Assembly (NCBI RefSeq): GCF_900109225.1
Contig: NZ_FNZK01000002.1
Coordinates: forward strand, 124,001 to 188,000
Origin: Propionispira arboris
GTDB lineage: Bacteria; Bacillota; Negativicutes; Selenomonadales; Selenomonadaceae
Length of the DNA stretch: 64,000 nt
Direction: 5' to 3'
A model generated the notes under the pieces. That model had not been told where the DNA came from and made no database searches. It saw only the letters and a list, made by a program, of their open reading frames with translations. Below, piece by piece: positions 6,639-27,882 of the stretch. The position numbers were made by a program, and so were the translations under genes. The first letter of the stretch is position 1. Each line of letters opens with the position of its first letter.

Positions 6639-8111
6639 ATGAGTAAACGAGGAATTTTTATAGTAACAATGGGACTCTTATTATCAAATGCTATGGCAGG
6701 TTTGGATGGAACAATAATCAATACAGCTTTGCCATCAATTATAAGTGATTTACATGGTATTCAATATATCGGTTGGATTATAGCTGCTTTTTTGTTAGGA
6801 ATGGCAGTGGCAACTCCTCTTTGGAGTAAACTTGGTGAACGAATTGGGAATAAAAAAGCCTATCAGATAGCCACCTTATTATTTGTTCTTGGGTCAATAT
6901 TTCAAGCATTGTCCAATGACATTACTTTTTTTGTAATTGCAAGGGCCGTTATGGGAATCGGTGCAGGTGGAATGAATGCGCTACCGTTTATTATTTATGC
7001 AGATTTATACACAAACTTAAGAAAACGAAGTGAAGTCATCGGGTATGCTACGGCAAGCTTTAGTGCAGCGTCAATCATTGGTCCATTGCTAGGAGGCTGG
7101 ATCGTAGATTCTTTTAGCTGGCACTGGGTATTTTATATTAATATTCCTATCGCATTGTTTTCAATTTTGAGTATTCAAATTTTTTTCAAGGAACCCGTAC
7201 GCATTGCTACAGGTAAAAAAATAGATTCTTTAGGCGCTTTTTTGATGATATCCGCGTTGGTTTCACTTTTAACTGGAATTCAAATGATTGGGACAGGTTC
7301 ACCTGTGCTTGTTGTTGCATTGATGCTTACTGGTCTGCTTTTGTTGGTCGTGTTATTAAAAGTTGAAAAGGAAGCTGCAGATCCTATAATTCCTAACAGA
7401 CTTTTTAAAAATGTTCCATTAGTAATTGATTTTTTGATGTTTGCTCTTCTATGGGGGGCATTTATTGCTTTGAACATCTATATACCAATGTGGGCACAAG
7501 GGCTATTAGGACTTAGCGCTTTAATAGGAGGAGTAACTCAAATCCCCGGCGCTATTACAAATTTTATAGGTTCTGTGATTGGGGCCAGAATACAAGGGCA
7601 GTTAGGTAAATACCGTATGGTTACTTTTGGAACCTTAGCTTTTTTAATTTCTTTTTTTTGCATGGTATTCGCTGGGGTTGATATACCATTTTGGTTTCTA
7701 TTGATAGTTGGTGCATTTGAAGGTCTTGGATTAGGTTTATGTTTTAATATTTTGCAAATTAGTGTGCAGCAAGATGCTGAAAAAAGAGATATTCCTATTG
7801 CAACGTCATTTGCATTTTTATTACGGATTTTAAGTCAAACGTTTATGTCTGCTATCTATGGCGTGGTTTTGAATCATGCCTTGATGAAAGGCGTTGCAGA
7901 ATCTAATGGAGAAATTTCTATTGCTATGTTGAATAAGTTGAGCAACTCGCAGAATATGACAGAATTGCCTGCAGCTTTGTTACCTGAAATGAGACAAATT
8001 ATGTATGGCGGGTTGCATCATATTATGTTGATTGCACTGATTTTATTGATCATAGCCTTCATCTTTAATCTTGGAATGCAATCTAAAATGAAGCAAAGGA
8101 GAACAATTTAA
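6639..8111 (+). CDS. MFS multidrug transporter, DHA2 (14-TM) family
   Basis: About 490 residues with roughly 14 hydrophobic segments, as in EmrB/QacA-type proton-coupled drug exporters. Motifs include GLDGTIINTALPSI in the first helix (motif D1), WIIAAFLLGMAVATPLWSKL with a GERIGNKKAYQ loop (motif A), and GGWIVDSFSWHWVFYINIP (motif C region). AAGGGG precedes the ATG at 6639. The frame is open further upstream to 6453, but that part has no ribosome binding site and contains the leader hairpin. The substrate is unknown; neighbouring genes do not help. Confidence 0.88.
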   Translation: MSKRGIFIVTMGLLLSNAMAGLDGTIINTALPSIISDLHGIQYIGWIIAAFLLGMAVATPLWSKLGERIGNKKAYQIATLLFVLGSIFQALSNDITFFVIARAVMGIGAGGMNALPFIIYADLYTNLRKRSEVIGYATASFSAASIIGPLLGGWIVDSFSWHWVFYINIPIALFSILSIQIFFKEPVRIATGKKIDSLGAFLMISALVSLLTGIQMIGTGSPVLVVALMLTGLLLLVVLLKVEKEAADPIIPNRLFKNVPLVIDFLMFALLWGAFIALNIYIPMWAQGLLGLSALIGGVTQIPGAITNFIGSVIGARIQGQLGKYRMVTFGTLAFLISFFCMVFAGVDIPFWFLLIVGAFEGLGLGLCFNILQISVQQDAEKRDIPIATSFAFLLRILSQTFMSAIYGVVLNHALMKGVAESNGEISIAMLNKLSNSQNMTELPAALLPEMRQIMYGGLHHIMLIALILLIIAFIFNLGMQSKMKQRRTI

Positions 8112-8227
8112 TGACTTTATACATCGCGTATTTTTTATGCGAGTAAAAAATAGTGGATAACATGGACAGCTTGAAACAGAATCTTTTGAGCTAAAGTAAA
8201 ATTAAAATTTTATAGTAAATATATTTC

Positions 8228-8258
8228 TTGACCTGAAGTGTACTCCGTAGAGTAGGAT
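8228..8258 (+). promoter_or_regulatory. MerR-type promoter with 19-bp spacer ahead of an AKR stump
   Basis: TTGACC (8228-8233) and TAGGAT (8253-8258) are separated by 19 bp, the unusually long spacing that MerR-family activators twist into shape. The spacer holds a partial dyad with AAGTGTACTC at its centre. Such promoters commonly drive aldo/keto reductases, and the first codons of such a gene follow at 8284. Confidence 0.5.
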
Positions 8259-8283
8259 AAAGTATTAGAAAAATCTTATTTTG

Positions 8284-8533
8284 ATGGAGAGTTGGGCAGT
8301 ATCATCTATAGGTCTTGGCTGTACGGGATTGAATGAACAAACCACGCCCATTGCTGTTCATTGCTGGTCAAGAAGCTCATTCATTAGAATTCAGCGAAGA
8401 TGCTTATGCAAAAGCAGCTGAACCGAAAGAATTATACATTATTCCGAATGCAGGGCATGCGGATTTATATGATCGTACGGATCTCATTCCTTTTGATAAA
8501 CTCATAAACTTTTTCAGTAAATACTTGAAATAA
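8284..8533 (+). pseudogene. Hybrid remnant: aldo/keto reductase start joined to alpha/beta-hydrolase end
   Basis: From the ATG at 8284 one frame reads ESWAVSSIGLGCTGLNE, the typical first strand of aldo/keto reductases. It then changes frame into a 66-codon ORF (8333-8533) that matches only the C-terminal end of a dienelactone-hydrolase-like enzyme: PLLFIAGQEAHSLEF, then IIPNAGHADLYD with the catalytic histidine region, and FFSKYLK. Neither domain is complete, and the nucleophile of the hydrolase is missing. Two neighbouring genes were probably fused by a deletion that removed everything between them. Confidence 0.6.
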
Positions 8534-22465: not shown

Positions 22466-22833
22466 ATGGAGGCAGTTTTAATTTCAGATGGAAATGGTTT
22501 TGCTGTAGTTGCTGACGAAGTCCGCAAATTATCACAAAATACCCAAGATAGTTTAAATCAAACCAATAGTTCGATTCAGACTTTGTTTCAGAGTGTAGAT
22601 GAAATATCGACGAAGATTAAAACAAGTAATGATTTCACCTATAAATTTCAAGATGAAATGGATCAATTTAATACGATTTAACACATGTAGGTAAGGATAT
22701 TATTGATGCTGTCGACATTATAGCTGCATCGATTGAACGTATTGCTGAAACGGATTCGGCTAATAAAACAACCCAAGGTGAACTAACAAAAGTTTCAAAT
22801 TTGGTTAGTTTTATGGAACGTGATGAAAAATAA
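22466..22833 (+). pseudogene. Frameshifted 3' remnant of a methyl-accepting chemotaxis protein
   Basis: The first 71 codons match the chemoreceptor signalling tip and descending helix: GNGFAVVADEVRKLSQNTQD. After the stop at 22679-22681, a different frame continues the helix (HVGKDIIDAVDIIAASIERI to SNLVSFMERDEK) and stops at 22833. The ligand domain, membrane segments, HAMP and half of the signalling domain are missing. The gene is therefore truncated at its 5' end and frameshifted. Confidence 0.8.
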
Positions 22834-22922: not shown

Positions 22923-23531
22923 ATGGAAAACATGTTTTTTATCAAAGGAGTCATACTTGGATTTTCTATCGCAGCACCTGTCGGTCCTATCGGAGTACTT
23001 TGCATTCGACGCACCTTGTCAAATGGTTTATTAAATGGATTTATTTCAGGACTTGGTACGGCAACCGCCGATGCCTTATATGGTTGTATCGCCGCTTTTG
23101 GTTTAACCGTTATATCCACTTTTTTAATAAATAGTCAATTTTATTTACATTTAACAGGAGGACTATTTTTACTTTATCTCGGATATAAAACTTTTCAATC
23201 CGTTCCAGCCGAAATTGCGGCAAAAGCAAATGGAAAGGGGCTTTTTGGGTCGTATACGTCGGCGTTTTTTCTAACATTGACCAATCCTCTGACGATCATG
23301 TCATTTGCTGCTGTTTTTGCTGGACTGGGAATAGGAACGGCTGGTGGAGAATTTGCATCTGGTTTACTTGTTTTAGGTGTCTTTATCGGCTCTATGCTTT
23401 GGTGGTTATTCTTGAGCGGAACGGTTAATTTACTTCGTACACGGTTTGACAAAAAAAGACTGCACTGGGTTAATCAGATTTCCGGAGTTGTGATAACTGC
23501 CTTTGGAATTTTAAGTCTGTCAACTCTTTAG
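22923..23531 (+). CDS. LysE/RhtB family amino acid exporter
   Basis: 202 residues with about six hydrophobic segments, the standard LysE size. The family signature GFSIAAPVGPIGVLCIRRTL is in helix 1, followed by GLGTATADALYGCIAAFGL. NPLTIMSFAAVFAGLG lies in the middle. Members export amino acids or derivatives such as homoserine lactones. GGAG precedes the ATG. It lies 28 bp from the MarR promoter palindrome but is transcribed as its own unit. Confidence 0.88.
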   Translation: MENMFFIKGVILGFSIAAPVGPIGVLCIRRTLSNGLLNGFISGLGTATADALYGCIAAFGLTVISTFLINSQFYLHLTGGLFLLYLGYKTFQSVPAEIAAKANGKGLFGSYTSAFFLTLTNPLTIMSFAAVFAGLGIGTAGGEFASGLLVLGVFIGSMLWWLFLSGTVNLLRTRFDKKRLHWVNQISGVVITAFGILSLSTL

Positions 23532-23545
23532 ATTAAAATTCATTA

Positions 23546-23601
23546 TTGACAAAGCTTATCTCCACAGCTATTATATGTATATACATATAATAGCTGTGGA
23601 G
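23546..23601 (+). promoter_or_regulatory. marR promoter inside a perfect 42-bp palindrome
   Basis: TTGACA (23546-23551), 17-bp spacer and TATTAT (23569-23574). A perfect palindrome of 42 bp runs from 23560 to 23601: left arm CTCCACAGCTATTATATGTAT, right arm its exact reverse complement. The right arm contains the GGAG of the ribosome binding site, so protein binding would block transcription, and an RNA hairpin would hide the ribosome site. Its core TATATGTATATACATATA recurs in the next promoter at 24053. Confidence 0.85.
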
Positions 23602-23610
23602 GTATTTATA

Positions 23611-24039
23611 ATGTTAAAGTTACCAGATATGCAATCTTGTATTTGTGGAAATTTAAGAAAAACGACACGTGTGATCACTCAGTTTTATGATCAGCACTTA
23701 CAATCAACTGGTCTACGCACCACACAATGTGCATTGCTTCGTAGTATTTCATTGCATAAAAACATTGCGGTTGGTGAACTGGCTGCTATACTGCTGATGG
23801 ACCAAAGTACGGTTACGAGAAATATTGAAATATTGAATAAGCATGGATACATTCAGATTGTGCCTGAACAGCAGGACGCTCGAAAAAAATTAATTTCAAT
23901 TACAACAGATGGTGAACACAAGCTTGAAGCAGCTATACCCTTATGGGAAGAGGCACAAAGAAAAATCGAACAAGTACTGGGAAAGCAATTTAATGGCTTT
24001 TTAGAAACACTAGACTCTATTAATAAACTTGGCAAATAA
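23611..24039 (+). CDS. MarR family transcriptional regulator
   Basis: About 142 residues. The winged helix is clear: LAAILLMDQSTVTRNIEIL, then GYIQIVPEQQDARKKLISIT, the wing with the D-x-R signature. Cysteines near the N-terminus (MQSCICGNLRK) could sense oxidants or electrophiles, as in OhrR-like members. ATG 23611 follows GGAGGTATTTATA. The same operator core lies in its own promoter and in that of the next gene, so it probably represses itself and the reductase-PfpI pair. Confidence 0.88.
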   Translation: MLKLPDMQSCICGNLRKTTRVITQFYDQHLQSTGLRTTQCALLRSISLHKNIAVGELAAILLMDQSTVTRNIEILNKHGYIQIVPEQQDARKKLISITTDGEHKLEAAIPLWEEAQRKIEQVLGKQFNGFLETLDSINKLGK

Positions 24040-24044
24040 AAATT

Positions 24045-24073
24045 TTGACAATATATATGTATATACATATATT
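24045..24073 (+). promoter_or_regulatory. Promoter and MarR operator of the reductase-PfpI pair
   Basis: TTGACA (24045-24050), 17-bp spacer, TATATT (24068-24073). A 20-bp perfect palindrome (24053-24072) fills the spacer and contains the same TATATGTATATACATATA core as the marR promoter. Confidence 0.8.
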
Positions 24074-24142: not shown

Positions 24143-24796
24143 ATGAGACTAACATTATTTAACGGAAGTCCAAGGAAAAATTGGAATACTGAAATTCTCT
24201 TGCAACATGTAATGAAAGGTGCAGCAGCAAATGGCGCAGAAACGGAACTCATCCATCTTTATGATTTAAATTATAAAGGTTGTAGAAGCTGTTACGCCTG
24301 TAAACGAGTGGGCGGAAAAAGCTATGGCCATTGTGCGATTCAGGATGATTTAACTGAGATCTTTAAAAAAGTAGAAGAATCGGATGCCCTAATTTTTGGT
24401 TCGCCTATTTATTATGGAAATGTTACCGGTGAGATGCGGTCTTTTTGGGAAAGATTGTTGTTTCCATACTCCGTATTTGATATGGAACGGTCATCTCTGT
24501 TTAAAAAGAAAATACGAACAGGAATCATTTATACCATGGCAGCAAATGAGATTCAGATGAAGACAATGGGGTATGAACAAAATCTTCATCTCATGGAACT
24601 GTTTATCAAGAAAATTTTTGGGGAAACAGAATCACTATTTGCTATTGATACCTGCCATTTTGAGGACTATACGCAATATGTTTCAACTTTTTTTGATGCA
24701 GAGGCAAAGCAAAAATGGCGGCAGGAAGAATTCCCCCAGGATTGTCAGAAGGCTTGGGAAATGGGAGCAAGAATTGTTCAGCCAATTTATATTTAA
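24143..24796 (+). CDS. Flavodoxin-fold NAD(P)H-dependent reductase (FMN reductase family)
   Basis: 217 residues. The FMN phosphate loop is FNGSPRKNWNTEIL. A CRSCYACK motif follows, as in iron-sulfur-flavoprotein-like reductases, then FGSPIYYGNVTGEMRSFWER, the flavin-edge loop. Such enzymes reduce quinones, nitro compounds or flavins. AATGGAGG precedes the ATG. A paralogue of about 60% visible similarity lies at 33260. It is controlled by the palindromic MarR operator and followed 15 bp later by PfpI. Confidence 0.85.
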   Translation: MRLTLFNGSPRKNWNTEILLQHVMKGAAANGAETELIHLYDLNYKGCRSCYACKRVGGKSYGHCAIQDDLTEIFKKVEESDALIFGSPIYYGNVTGEMRSFWERLLFPYSVFDMERSSLFKKKIRTGIIYTMAANEIQMKTMGYEQNLHLMELFIKKIFGETESLFAIDTCHFEDYTQYVSTFFDAEAKQKWRQEEFPQDCQKAWEMGARIVQPIYI

Positions 24797-24811
24797 TGGA
24801 GCGTGGTAATT

Positions 24812-25444
24812 ATGGGGAAAATATTATGTTTTATTTACGAAGAAATGGTTGATTTTGAAATGACATTAGCGTGTCATCTGCTTAACCGAGAGATTGTTTG
24901 TATTGCTTATGAAAAGCAAGTGATAAAAAGCAAATCTGGAATATGGTATTATCCTATGGCTACAGTAAAAGATGCACTGGATTTTACCGATGTGGAGGCT
25001 TTAATTATACCAGGGGGATTTAATGATGAGCAGCGACCAGAATTAACGGAACTCATTCAAAATTTAAATAACAAAAGCATCTTATTAGCTGCAATTTGTG
25101 CTGGTACGCAGTATTTAGCGAGGGCTGGAGTTTTACAAGGGAGAATGTATACAACTGTATTAACCAAAGAAAAGCTTAGAAAGGTTTTTCCAATGGCATT
25201 AGATGACCCATTTCCGCGGGAAAGCTATATTAATAAAAATGTGGTAAAAGATCAAAATATCGTTACGGCTTTGGGAAATGCATTTGTGGATTTTGCAGTA
25301 GAAATACTTGACTATTTTAAACTTTTTAAAGAAGAAAAGGAAAAGCAGGATATGAGTAATCATTATAAGTGCCTAATTAGTTTTTCTCCATCAGTAAATG
25401 CTCTTAAGGATAATTCCTCAGATATTGCAAAATTAGAATCATGA
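24812..25444 (+). CDS. DJ-1/PfpI family protein with an altered C-terminus
   Basis: About 210 residues. The fold is recognised from EALIIPGGFNDEQ and the nucleophile elbow AAICAGTQYLARAGVL, where the cysteine of AICAG is the conserved catalytic or redox residue. The family includes glyoxalase/chaperone and stress proteins. ATG 24812 is preferred over the GTG at 24803. The last 27 or so residues (CLISFSPSVNALKD...) are encoded by the antisense of the convergent reductase gene. The original stop seems lost and the tail is junk. MarR-controlled with the upstream reductase. Confidence 0.8.
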   Translation: MGKILCFIYEEMVDFEMTLACHLLNREIVCIAYEKQVIKSKSGIWYYPMATVKDALDFTDVEALIIPGGFNDEQRPELTELIQNLNNKSILLAAICAGTQYLARAGVLQGRMYTTVLTKEKLRKVFPMALDDPFPRESYINKNVVKDQNIVTALGNAFVDFAVEILDYFKLFKEEKEKQDMSNHYKCLISFSPSVNALKDNSSDIAKLES

Positions 25445-25926
25445 GTTCCACAGCAATGAATACTATCCGTTAAATCCCAACCATAAAGTGCAAATACATT
25501 ATTAATAAAATTAATATCATCTGCACCTATTTTAGGATCTGCACCCCCTTGAGCAAATATCGTTATTATCTTTTTACCTGGATGTCTTGGTACAAAATCT
25601 CCAAGCCCTCCAATCATTGGAAATGTACGGTCTAACCAAACTTTTGCTTGACCTGTAATTTGGTGATAATAGATTGGAGAACCAAATATAATAGCATCTG
25701 CTTCATTAATAGCCTCATACATTGGTTGTAGATAATCTTGAATAGCACAGCCATCATGTGTACGGCAATAATAGCATCCTTGACAACCACGAATTCCAGA
25801 ATCATTCAAATCAAATTCAATAATTTCGGCACTTTTTGATTTGGCTCCGTTGGTCACTTGGTCTAATAGTTTTGCAGTATACCCATTTTTTCGTGGACTA
25901 CCATTAAAAATAACAACCTTTGACAT
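25363..25926 (-). CDS. Flavodoxin-fold NAD(P)H-dependent reductase
   Basis: 187 residues. FMN loop FNGSPRKNGYTAKLL, the cysteine motif CQGCYYCRTHDGC, and the flavin-edge loop FGSPIYYHQITGQAKVWLDR. Likely a quinone or nitro reductase. AAGGGAGCG precedes its ATG on the minus strand. Its 3' end overlaps the PfpI gene by 82 bp tail-to-tail. It is divergent from an HxlR regulator that probably controls it through the site at 26003. Confidence 0.85.
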   Translation of the reverse strand: MSKVVIFNGSPRKNGYTAKLLDQVTNGAKSKSAEIIEFDLNDSGIRGCQGCYYCRTHDGCAIQDYLQPMYEAINEADAIIFGSPIYYHQITGQAKVWLDRTFPMIGGLGDFVPRHPGKKIITIFAQGGADPKIGADDINFINNVFALYGWDLTDSIHCCGTHDSNFAISEELSLRAFTDGEKLIRHL

Positions 25927-26002
25927 TTAATATCGCTCCCTTTTAGTAGTTTTATTTTAGATGTTGCTTGCATTGATTATAATATGAATGTTGTTATAAT
26001 TG

Positions 26003-26014
26003 AAGTACGCACTT
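26003..26014. promoter_or_regulatory. HxlR-type operator
   Basis: AAGT-ACGC-ACTT, a dyad like YodB/HypR boxes, between the divergent reductase and HxlR genes. The same AAGT-N4-ACTT dyad lies at 33177-33188 in front of the other HxlR gene, with matching flanks on the HxlR side. Confidence 0.7.
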
Positions 26015-26049
26015 TATGGTTAGATACTCAATAAAAGGAGAGTGATTTT

Positions 26050-26388
26050 ATGAAAGATGGACCTATTGATCCTTTGGTATGTCCCATGTCATATACAGTA
26101 TCTATTGTCAGTGGTAAATGGCAATGGGTAATATTATGGTTATTATATAACGAAAAAGTACAAAGATATGGAGAACTAAAGAAAAGGCTGGCAACTATTT
26201 CTCATAAAATGTTAAGCCAACAATTAGATTCACTTGAATTTGAGCAATTAATCCATCGTGAAGAATATCCGCAAATACCTCCTAAAGTGGAATATTCTTT
26301 AACTGAGAAAGGTGAAACATTAATCCCTATATTGAAGCTTATGGCTATGTGGGGAGTACAGCACGGTTCACAAGCATATATTGAGTAA
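26050..26388 (+). CDS. HxlR family transcriptional regulator (redox-sensor type)
   Basis: 112 residues, one winged helix-turn-helix. Typical motifs are SIVSGKWQWVILWLL, RYGELKKRLATISHKMLSQQ and VEYSLTEKGETLIPIL. A single N-terminal cysteine (DPLVCPMSYT, C11) is placed like the sensing cysteine of YodB/HypR, which react with quinones and disulfide stress. AAAAGGAGAGTG precedes the ATG. Divergent from a flavodoxin-fold reductase, the usual target for this type. Confidence 0.9.
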   Translation: MKDGPIDPLVCPMSYTVSIVSGKWQWVILWLLYNEKVQRYGELKKRLATISHKMLSQQLDSLEFEQLIHREEYPQIPPKVEYSLTEKGETLIPILKLMAMWGVQHGSQAYIE

Positions 26389-26392
26389 ATAT

Positions 26393-26442
26393 CGATAACC
26401 ATCAAGTGACAAAAAACAATAGTTGTCATTTGGTGATTATCG
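26393..26442. terminator. Long hairpin after the HxlR gene
   Basis: CGATAACCATCAAGTGACAA and TTGTCATTTGGTGATTATCG pair over 20 bp with one mismatch and two G-U pairs. No strong T-run follows. It may be a terminator, or an operator for the TetR gene starting 36 bp later. Confidence 0.5.
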
Positions 26443-26477
26443 TGTTATTATAGGTTTAAGGAGATGAAATATACTTT

Positions 26478-27065
26478 ATGGGCGATTTTTCAGGAATACT
26501 AACGAAAGAGCAGATACTTGTAACAACGGAAGAAGCGCTCAGACGTTTCGGGGTGGCAAAAACCTCTGTGATAGATGTTGCCCGTATATTGAATGTAAGT
26601 CATGGAACGATTTATCGACACTTCAAAAGCAAGAATGAGCTTCTTGAAGGCGTTACTGAAAAATGGCTTGACGAAAAAATCATTAAGCCGTTAACAGCTG
26701 TTTGTAAGGACACTTCAATGGAAGGACCTCAACATTTACAAACATATCTTCGGACACTCATTGAATTAAAACACCACTATGCTCGTGAAGATGAAGAGAT
26801 GTTTAAAATGTATGCAAAAGTAACCGATGAAGCTGCTGATTTAATTTATAAACACGTTAATCATATTACAGATCAAATGGGTGAAATCATTACCCGTAGT
26901 CGCATAAAATCGGAGGAACCTTCTCGCTTAGCACGAACTATTTTCTATGCTACGATACGATTCCATCACCCAGCTCATGCCTATGAATGGAAAAGTCCAA
27001 CGATTTATAAGGAGTTTTTAGATGTGTGGACTTTACTGGAAAAAGGGTTTATATCTGAAAAGTGA
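26478..27065 (+). CDS. TetR family transcriptional regulator
   Basis: 195 residues. The N-terminal helix-turn-helix reads TTEEALRRFGVAKTSVIDVA, then ARILNVSHGTIYRHFKSKNE. The C-terminal region is of the TetR_C group seen in regulators of SDR or oxidoreductase genes. AAGGAGATG precedes the ATG. The next intact gene is an SDR oxidoreductase 70 bp downstream, probably its target. Confidence 0.88.
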   Translation: MGDFSGILTKEQILVTTEEALRRFGVAKTSVIDVARILNVSHGTIYRHFKSKNELLEGVTEKWLDEKIIKPLTAVCKDTSMEGPQHLQTYLRTLIELKHHYAREDEEMFKMYAKVTDEAADLIYKHVNHITDQMGEIITRSRIKSEEPSRLARTIFYATIRFHHPAHAYEWKSPTIYKEFLDVWTLLEKGFISEK

Positions 27066-27080
27066 AATACGGGGAAGCGG

Positions 27081-27116
27081 ATGAATTTAATAACTTTAGT
27101 AACAGGTGCAAAAAAT
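27081..27116 (+). pseudogene. Twelve-codon stump of a second SDR gene
   Basis: An ATG at 27081 begins MNLITLVTGAKNK, the classic first beta strand and start of the glycine loop of SDRs (ITLVTGANKGIG type). The frame then runs out of homology into the leader of the intact SDR at 27136. It looks like a gene start left after deletion. Confidence 0.45.
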
Positions 27117-27135
27117 AAAGTAGAAGGAAGGTTGA

Positions 27136-27882
27136 ATGAAAATGAAAATTTTAGAAGGAAAAGTAGCAATCATAACTGGGTCTTCGAGAGGCATTGGACG
27201 TGTTGTTGCTGAACAACTGGCTGATCTAGGTGCTAACGTGGTGATTAATTATTCCAGCAATCGCCAAAAGGCAGATGATGTGGTGGAAGGCATTCTTAAA
27301 AAAGGAGGCAAAGCGGTAGCACTTCATGCTGATCTAAGTAAGTTAAATGATGTTAAAGAATTGTTTACAAAAACAATTGATGAGTTCGGTAAAGTGGATA
27401 TTCTGATTAATAATGCCGGGCTGATGATAACCAAACCTCTTTCGGATGTAACGGAAGACGATTTTGACAAACAATTTGCCGTAAACGTGAAAGGTACTTT
27501 CTTTGCATGTCAGCAAGCATTGAAACACATGGAAAACAACGGAAGAATCGTGAACTTCTCGACGTCTGTAGCCGGGCAAATGTTTCCGACGTACAGTGTA
27601 TATGCTGGCACAAAAGGTGCAGTTGAACAATTCACGCGTCAACTTGCAAAAGAATTCGGCTCCAAACAAATTACAATTAATGCAGTGGCGCCTGGACCTG
27701 TAAACACTGAGCTTTTTAAGTTGGGAAAAACAGAGCAGCAAATCGACGCTATGAAAAAGATGAATGCTTTTGGCCGGATTGGTGAACCAGAAGATATTGC
27801 AAATGTCATTGAATTTCTAGTAAGCGATCAATCACAATGGGTAACGGGTCAAACCCTGCGTGTAAATGGTGGATTTATTTAA
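27136..27882 (+). CDS. Short-chain dehydrogenase/reductase
   Basis: 248 residues, a classical SDR. The cofactor loop is TGSSRGIGRVVAEQL, NNAG occurs in DILINNAGLM, and the catalytic Ser-Tyr-Lys appears as STSVAGQMFPTYSVYAGTKG. The C-terminal GQTLRVNGGFI is typical. The basic-residue pattern YSSNRQ after beta-2 suggests NADPH. GGAAGG precedes the ATG. Probably regulated by the TetR upstream and co-transcribed with the following cupin. Confidence 0.9.
   Translation: MKMKILEGKVAIITGSSRGIGRVVAEQLADLGANVVINYSSNRQKADDVVEGILKKGGKAVALHADLSKLNDVKELFTKTIDEFGKVDILINNAGLMITKPLSDVTEDDFDKQFAVNVKGTFFACQQALKHMENNGRIVNFSTSVAGQMFPTYSVYAGTKGAVEQFTRQLAKEFGSKQITINAVAPGPVNTELFKLGKTEQQIDAMKKMNAFGRIGEPEDIANVIEFLVSDQSQWVTGQTLRVNGGFI

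Follow-up and report, generated by a model that had tools for sequence, protein, structure and literature searches.

In IS10 fold-back inhibition, read-through RNA hides a start site that is left free by the element's own promoter. For I-TevI of phage T4, the excerpted account in PMC2988022 describes a hairpin in long RNA that hides the ribosome site, a promoter positioned to avoid this hairpin, and repression of that promoter by the protein itself. Within the MarR family, whose footprints reach ~22 bp according to an excerpt of PMC3737563, the repressor MosR forms a disulphide between two cysteines of one chain, Cys10 and Cys12, probably leaves DNA on oxidation and regulates an oxidoreductase (PMC5823404, in excerpt). 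Finally, template switching is described as making imperfect inverted repeats perfect (excerpt of PMC7202029) and is inferred to produce compensated changes in RNA genes (excerpt of PMC8794818). Here we describe a marR locus of Propionispira arboris, within a stretch of 64,000 nucleotides of contig NZ_FNZK01000002.1 (the window), at which a palindrome of 42 bp lies across the marR promoter and extends into the ribosome site.

The MarR regulator and its two probable sites

The features of the locus are as follows (window coordinates; no strand is given for symmetrical sites):

23546–23551, + strand: marR promoter –35 element TTGACA, shared by the five orthologues and also by two homologues further away
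23569–23574, + strand: marR promoter –10 element TATTAT, behind a 17-bp spacer, with a predicted start at ~23581; in all five orthologues
23560–23601: perfect palindrome of 42 bp (left arm 23560–23580, right arm 23581–23601)
23572–23589: putative operator core of site 1, 18 bp, TATATGTATATACATATA (family-wide core TGTATATACA)
23560–23568: outer left arm, within the –35/–10 spacer, where lineage differences are compensated pairs only
23593–23601: outer right arm, extending into the ribosome site (GGAG, 23598–23601)
23611–24039, + strand: marR gene, 142 aa, MosR-like, with N-terminal Cys10-x-Cys12 (Pfam MarR_2, 7.3e-10)
24045–24073, + strand: promoter 2, TTGACA-17-TATATT (–35 24045–24050, –10 24068–24073; 11/12)
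24053–24072: site 2, a perfect palindrome of 20 bp around an identical core, overlapping the spacer and –10 element of promoter 2
24143–24796, + strand: FMN-reductase family gene, putative target (Pfam FMN_red, 6e-22)
24812–25444, + strand: DJ-1/PfpI family gene, which would stand second in the target operon (Pfam DJ-1_PfpI, 3.3e-23)

The 42-bp palindrome is exact, and its dyad falls between 23580 and 23581; if one mismatched pair is allowed the arms grow to 24 nt each (23557–23604). It covers the –10 element, the predicted start and the GGAG of marR, whose ATG at 23611 is the start codon backed by the orthologues. The promoter matches 11 of 12 consensus bases and is kept as TTGACA-17-TATTAT in all five orthologues and as TTGACA-17-TAATAT in the two more distant homologues, and because its –10 element ends ~7 bases before the dyad centre, transcription of marR is predicted to start there, at the first base of the right arm. 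Upstream, a lysE-type gene ends at 23531, 29 bp before the palindrome and 14 bp before the –35 element, and the window scan found no terminator between that end and the –35 element. Further upstream, at 22466–22833, inspection by eye shows the remnant of a gene that we take to be of the methyl-accepting chemotaxis type, with an apparent stop at ~22680 after which similar sequence continues in another frame.

The marR product scores above the Pfam cut-offs for both MarR_2 (39.3 bits, cut-off 27) and MarR (35.6 bits, cut-off 24.6), and passes no NCBIfam cut-off for MarR equivalogs such as BilQ or HpaR (best BilQ, 44.7 bits against 125). Its closest solved structure is PDB 4fx0/4fx4 (E 3.4e-16), which we take to be MosR of Mycobacterium tuberculosis, the entry title reading probable transcriptional repressor. 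Cys10 and Cys12 align with the CxC of 4fx0, and a CxC is present in all five orthologues. By analogy with MosR the protein is probably a redox-sensing repressor of the same kind that would be released from DNA by oxidation.

Protein searches gave matches in 8 of 189 genomes of the order (E ≤ 1e-20), 39 of 380 genomes of the class (E ≤ 1e-18) and 8 of 398 genomes sampled from the phylum (E ≤ 1e-17), and a tblastn search for close plasmid relatives returned 45 records, all below 60% identity. Five sequences with at least 85% identity over the search alignment are treated as orthologues, namely our own and those of genomes G048, G178, G299 (Sporomusa silvacetica) and G318, with G048 falling in one genus with our own genome. 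At least one core site is present in 54 of the 55 loci scanned (90 sites in total), usually as a pair, the first at the start of marR and the second directly behind the gene, ahead of the next one. Judged by this comparison, the layout operator–marR–operator–target is a family trait.

The second site fits this layout. As the first-pass annotation had noted, the 18-bp core is repeated exactly in the next promoter, at 24054–24071 and inside the 20-bp palindrome; site 2 does not carry the outer arms of site 1. Allowing up to three mismatches, the window contains the core three times, where 100 shuffles average 0.09, and with up to two mismatches the core occurs at only two places in our own 4.26-Mb assembly (three for the backwards control). 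A repeated mobile palindrome is ruled out by these two places. The order site 2, reductase, pfpI is found in four of the five orthologous loci (our own, G048, G299 and G318); in G178 no reductase was found after site 2, where the contig ends soon after. The proposed small regulon of marR, reductase and pfpI thus gains support from the two genome sites and the shared gene order, and the occurrence of the core near the marR start and again after marR in related genes makes it well supported, on comparative grounds, that the palindrome core is the DNA operator of this MarR protein. Three observations on the neighbourhood may be added. The DJ-1/PfpI gene also has an open upstream GTG start at 24803. 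Past pfpI, at 25363–27882, the window shares with G048 a conserved block that holds HxlR, TetR and SDR genes and another FMN-reductase gene, which lies on the opposite strand. In place of the reductase, G178 has a short HTH_38-like reading frame just under the cut-off (positions 8107–8340 of locus L068), possibly a transposase fragment.

Compensated changes in the outer arms

In each of the five orthologues the marR-site palindrome is at least 40 bp long and has its end within the ribosome site; the one mismatched pair near the centre in G048 is the sole lone change in its perfect part. The outer arm occurs in three types, CTCCACAGC in the window and G048, TCAATGGC in S. silvacetica and G318 and TCTACATT in G178, and each type is matched on the opposite side. 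Among the 24 arm pairs, 14 are invariant, five vary on one side and five are changed on both sides, compared with at most one double-changed pair in slid controls. When G-U is allowed, 98.3% of cells are paired; shuffles give 92.1% and slid versions no more than 58.3%. The cells count sequences rather than events and come from five orthologues with three arm types.

At positions 13–20 from the dyad each of the other two types differs from the window type at 6 of 16 bases, as three matched pairs. By simple arithmetic, six random changes in 16 sites would form three correct matched pairs with a chance of ~3 in 10,000. This arm difference is close to the divergence between arm types at fourfold sites of marR (0.32–0.41). 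Because all of these differences fall as matched pairs, it is symmetry rather than sequence that is kept; as far as the alignments can tell, the sequence of the outer arms is hardly conserved and their symmetry is. These compensated arms, lying outside a ~22-bp footprint, are the new point beyond the first-pass annotation.

Overlong palindromes and the proposed mechanism

Long palindromes at these loci coincide with operators. Across 269,882 bases of marR loci all 15 of the perfect palindromes listed at 20 bp or more lie on operator cores (the 15 include two near-identical copies in one genome, and identical sites were counted once), and none of the 91 non-operator palindromes of at least 12 bp in the same loci reaches 20 bp (0.4 expected). 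Second operators also carry such palindromes: S. silvacetica and the distant homologue G014 each have one of 30 bp, G318 has one of 26 bp and G292 one of 24 bp. In the three inspected (G014, S. silvacetica and G292) the ribosome site lies outside the palindrome. The G014 palindrome, CGGCAAAGAGTGTATATACACTCTTTGCCG, occupies positions 1387–1416 of locus L009, with a GGAGG ~17 bp outside it.

Among homologues with less than 80% identity, symmetry continues past the core for at least 4 bp in 9 of the 72 sites, versus 1.6 in shuffles that preserve position preference. For the marR-promoter sites of these homologues alone, contiguous paired runs exceed shuffles and the summed number of paired flank positions does not (p 0.42). 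The majority of the distant sites are without a long extension. Plain operator selection may account for some of the shorter ones, since MarR footprints are given as ~22 bp in the excerpt of PMC3737563.

In 322,786 bases of our own contig, the window included, there are five perfect palindromes of at least 20 bp, two of them the operators described here (0.55 expected). Another is a 24-bp perfect palindrome, TGAGGTACACTTAAGTGTACCTCA (positions 1870–1893 of L106), the second longest after the 42-bp one in the examined part. A 20-bp perfect palindrome, AAGTGTAGCATGCTACACTT (positions 2020–2039 of L110), stands a few bases after a TTGACA-like hexamer and is possibly the operator of another regulator.

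A possible trace of copying comes from S. silvacetica, where the left arm has a third, exact inverted copy of 14 bp that lies upstream and takes in the –35 hexamer; when the upstream stretch was shuffled 20,000 times, 24 shuffles reached 10 bp. Inverted copies of the left arm also occur in G318 (8 bp, exact) and G048 (6 bp), and none of at least 6 bp was found in the window or in G178.

The reading that we favour, and hold to be evenly poised between right and wrong, is a MosR-like autoregulatory double operator whose outer arms were made and kept symmetrical by template switching seeded at the core. By comparison with its relatives, a MarR dimer would bind the core at the dyad, which is also the predicted marR start, and block polymerase, and a second dimer would cover the spacer and –10 element of the reductase–pfpI promoter. 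Oxidation of Cys10 and Cys12 would release the repressor, as is probable for MosR. The arms beyond the ~22-bp footprint would not be read base by base by the protein; most likely they were created and kept symmetrical during replication by template switching, with the conserved core palindrome as the seed. Read-through RNA from upstream is predicted to fold and hide the marR ribosome site, as a by-product or later use, and the mRNA of marR itself, starting at the dyad, is predicted to stay open.

Copying is favoured because palindromes that contain no ribosome site are overlong at operators too, because symmetry beyond the core exceeds shuffles in the homologues of less than 80% identity, and because S. 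silvacetica carries the third copy. Against it stands the fact that all five marR-site palindromes end in the ribosome site, which is expected under selection on RNA as well. Additionally, copying is not visible at unselected seeds, as none of the 91 non-operator palindromes reaches 20 bp.

Read-through RNA and other readings of the arms

The first-pass annotation had suggested that the palindrome, if transcribed in full, also acts as an RNA hairpin that hides the ribosome site. Because marR's own RNA is predicted to start at the dyad, only read-through RNA can fold the palindrome. The conserved promoter puts the predicted 5′ end of marR's mRNA inside the right arm, at its first base (~23581), an outcome that the first-pass annotation itself had named as excluding the hairpin; this would rule it out for that transcript and leave the suggestion open to read-through RNA alone. 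Long RNA of the window folds at –37.3 kcal/mol versus a shuffle mean of –16.2, whereas RNA from 23581 folds at –5.3, no better than shuffles. The mean unpaired probability of the ribosome site in the five orthologues is 0.002, 0.005, 0.17, 0.17 and 0.21 in long RNA versus 0.51, 0.49, 0.39, 0.43 and 0.52 in RNA from the dyad.

Such values are what one would look for if the same operator had long arms kept by selection as a silencer of read-through RNA, such that only repressor-controlled transcription yields MarR, an explanation that we consider a serious possibility while judging it on balance less than probable. In its favour, every one of the five orthologues has arms that run as far as the ribosome site, which is predicted to be paired in long RNA, nearly all arm cells pair once G-U is allowed, lysE ends close ahead of the –35 element with no terminator found between, and I-TevI, as excerpted in PMC2988022, is a precedent for the combination of promoter, hairpin and autorepressor. 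However, operators whose palindrome leaves the ribosome site out are extended as well. The gene upstream of marR also varies, being lysE here, whereas G048 has an L-ribulose-5-phosphate 3-epimerase gene, G178 a flavin reductase-like gene, and S. silvacetica and G318 reading frames without family assignment; in S. silvacetica it lies ~500 bp away with a terminator-like site between. Both Sporomusa and G178 cover the ribosome site chiefly by G-U pairs or beyond one mismatch. Two homologues without long arms show a similar, weaker difference between long and dyad RNA (0.23 vs 0.63 and 0.43 vs 0.66), so that part of the hiding of the ribosome site is generic. The bias of one-sided changes towards G-U is confounded by the opposite G/T-rich ribosome site, where transitions always give G-U, and was dropped as proof of selection on RNA.

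A different reading has the whole 40–44 bp bound by protein, with the outer arms read by a pair of MarR dimers or by another symmetrical regulator. Dimers do prefer perfect symmetry, and the confinement of all 15 long palindromes in 270 kb to operator cores agrees with this, but MarR-family footprints are put at ~22 bp (PMC3737563, excerpt), 6 of 16 outer positions differ between regulators that are ~85% identical, and site 2 is without these arms, which together make this improbable. That the palindrome is an intrinsic terminator or attenuator of the upstream gene is more doubtful still: a scan makes a terminator-like call on it for the window and for G048, but no such call on the marR strand in G178, S. 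silvacetica or G318, and the tail is poor, with no conserved U-tract after the stem in the window and the four other orthologues. A DNA cruciform acting as a supercoiling sensor at the promoter, to which a long perfect palindrome with an AT-rich centre might lend itself, is very unlikely, as a similar promoter arrangement is seen in homologues whose cores are 12 bp and whose sites lack long arms.

Template-switch copying thus remains the favoured origin of the arms, with selection for a read-through-silencing hairpin as its close rival, and both can be true, the one as origin and the other as reason for keeping. A tentative combination of the two, rather unlikely in our view, would have one element with two jobs, a DNA operator for the repressor and an RNA silencer of marR in its neighbours' transcripts, with arms that drift at about the rate of fourfold sites only as matched pairs, by operator-seeded copying. 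Operators would in that case serve quite generally as nurseries for RNA hairpins. Covariation is commonly accepted as proof that an RNA stem is functional. Here it is found at a DNA operator, with overlong palindromes on sister operators in which no ribosome site takes part, and the locus therefore offers a compact natural example in which to ask whether selection on RNA or the mutation process itself produces matched changes. For a MosR-like regulator in the Negativicutes it also supplies a set of operators and targets that can be tested.

Literature searches that combined MarR, hairpin, ribosome site and autorepression gave no match, those with the core string gave, among the titles listed, none on such a regulator, those on operators or binding sites with template switching gave no listed title of this kind, and the papers listed for fold-back inhibition did not contain that term, results that do not imply absence in print. 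The fold-back inhibition of IS10 differs from the present case in that it is a matter of transposase protection and involves no operator. To MosR the likeness lies in the aligned N-terminal CxC and in an operator ahead of a neighbouring oxidoreductase gene (in four of the five orthologous loci here). The two proteins are distant in sequence, and here the target is an FMN reductase–DJ-1/PfpI pair and the regulator's own operator a palindrome of 42 bp. Like I-TevI as excerpted in PMC2988022, marR would have a transcript of its own without part of the hairpin that hides the ribosome site, and a protein that represses the promoter of that transcript; in contrast, I-TevI is a phage homing endonuclease with timed promoters, and the present case is a chromosomal marR with a perfect DNA palindrome, known from its sequence. 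Finally, perfect repeats and compensated changes of several bases would be shared with the template-switch palindromes described in the excerpts of PMC7202029 and PMC8794818, whereas here the seed would be a selected operator and the case is known from species comparison alone.
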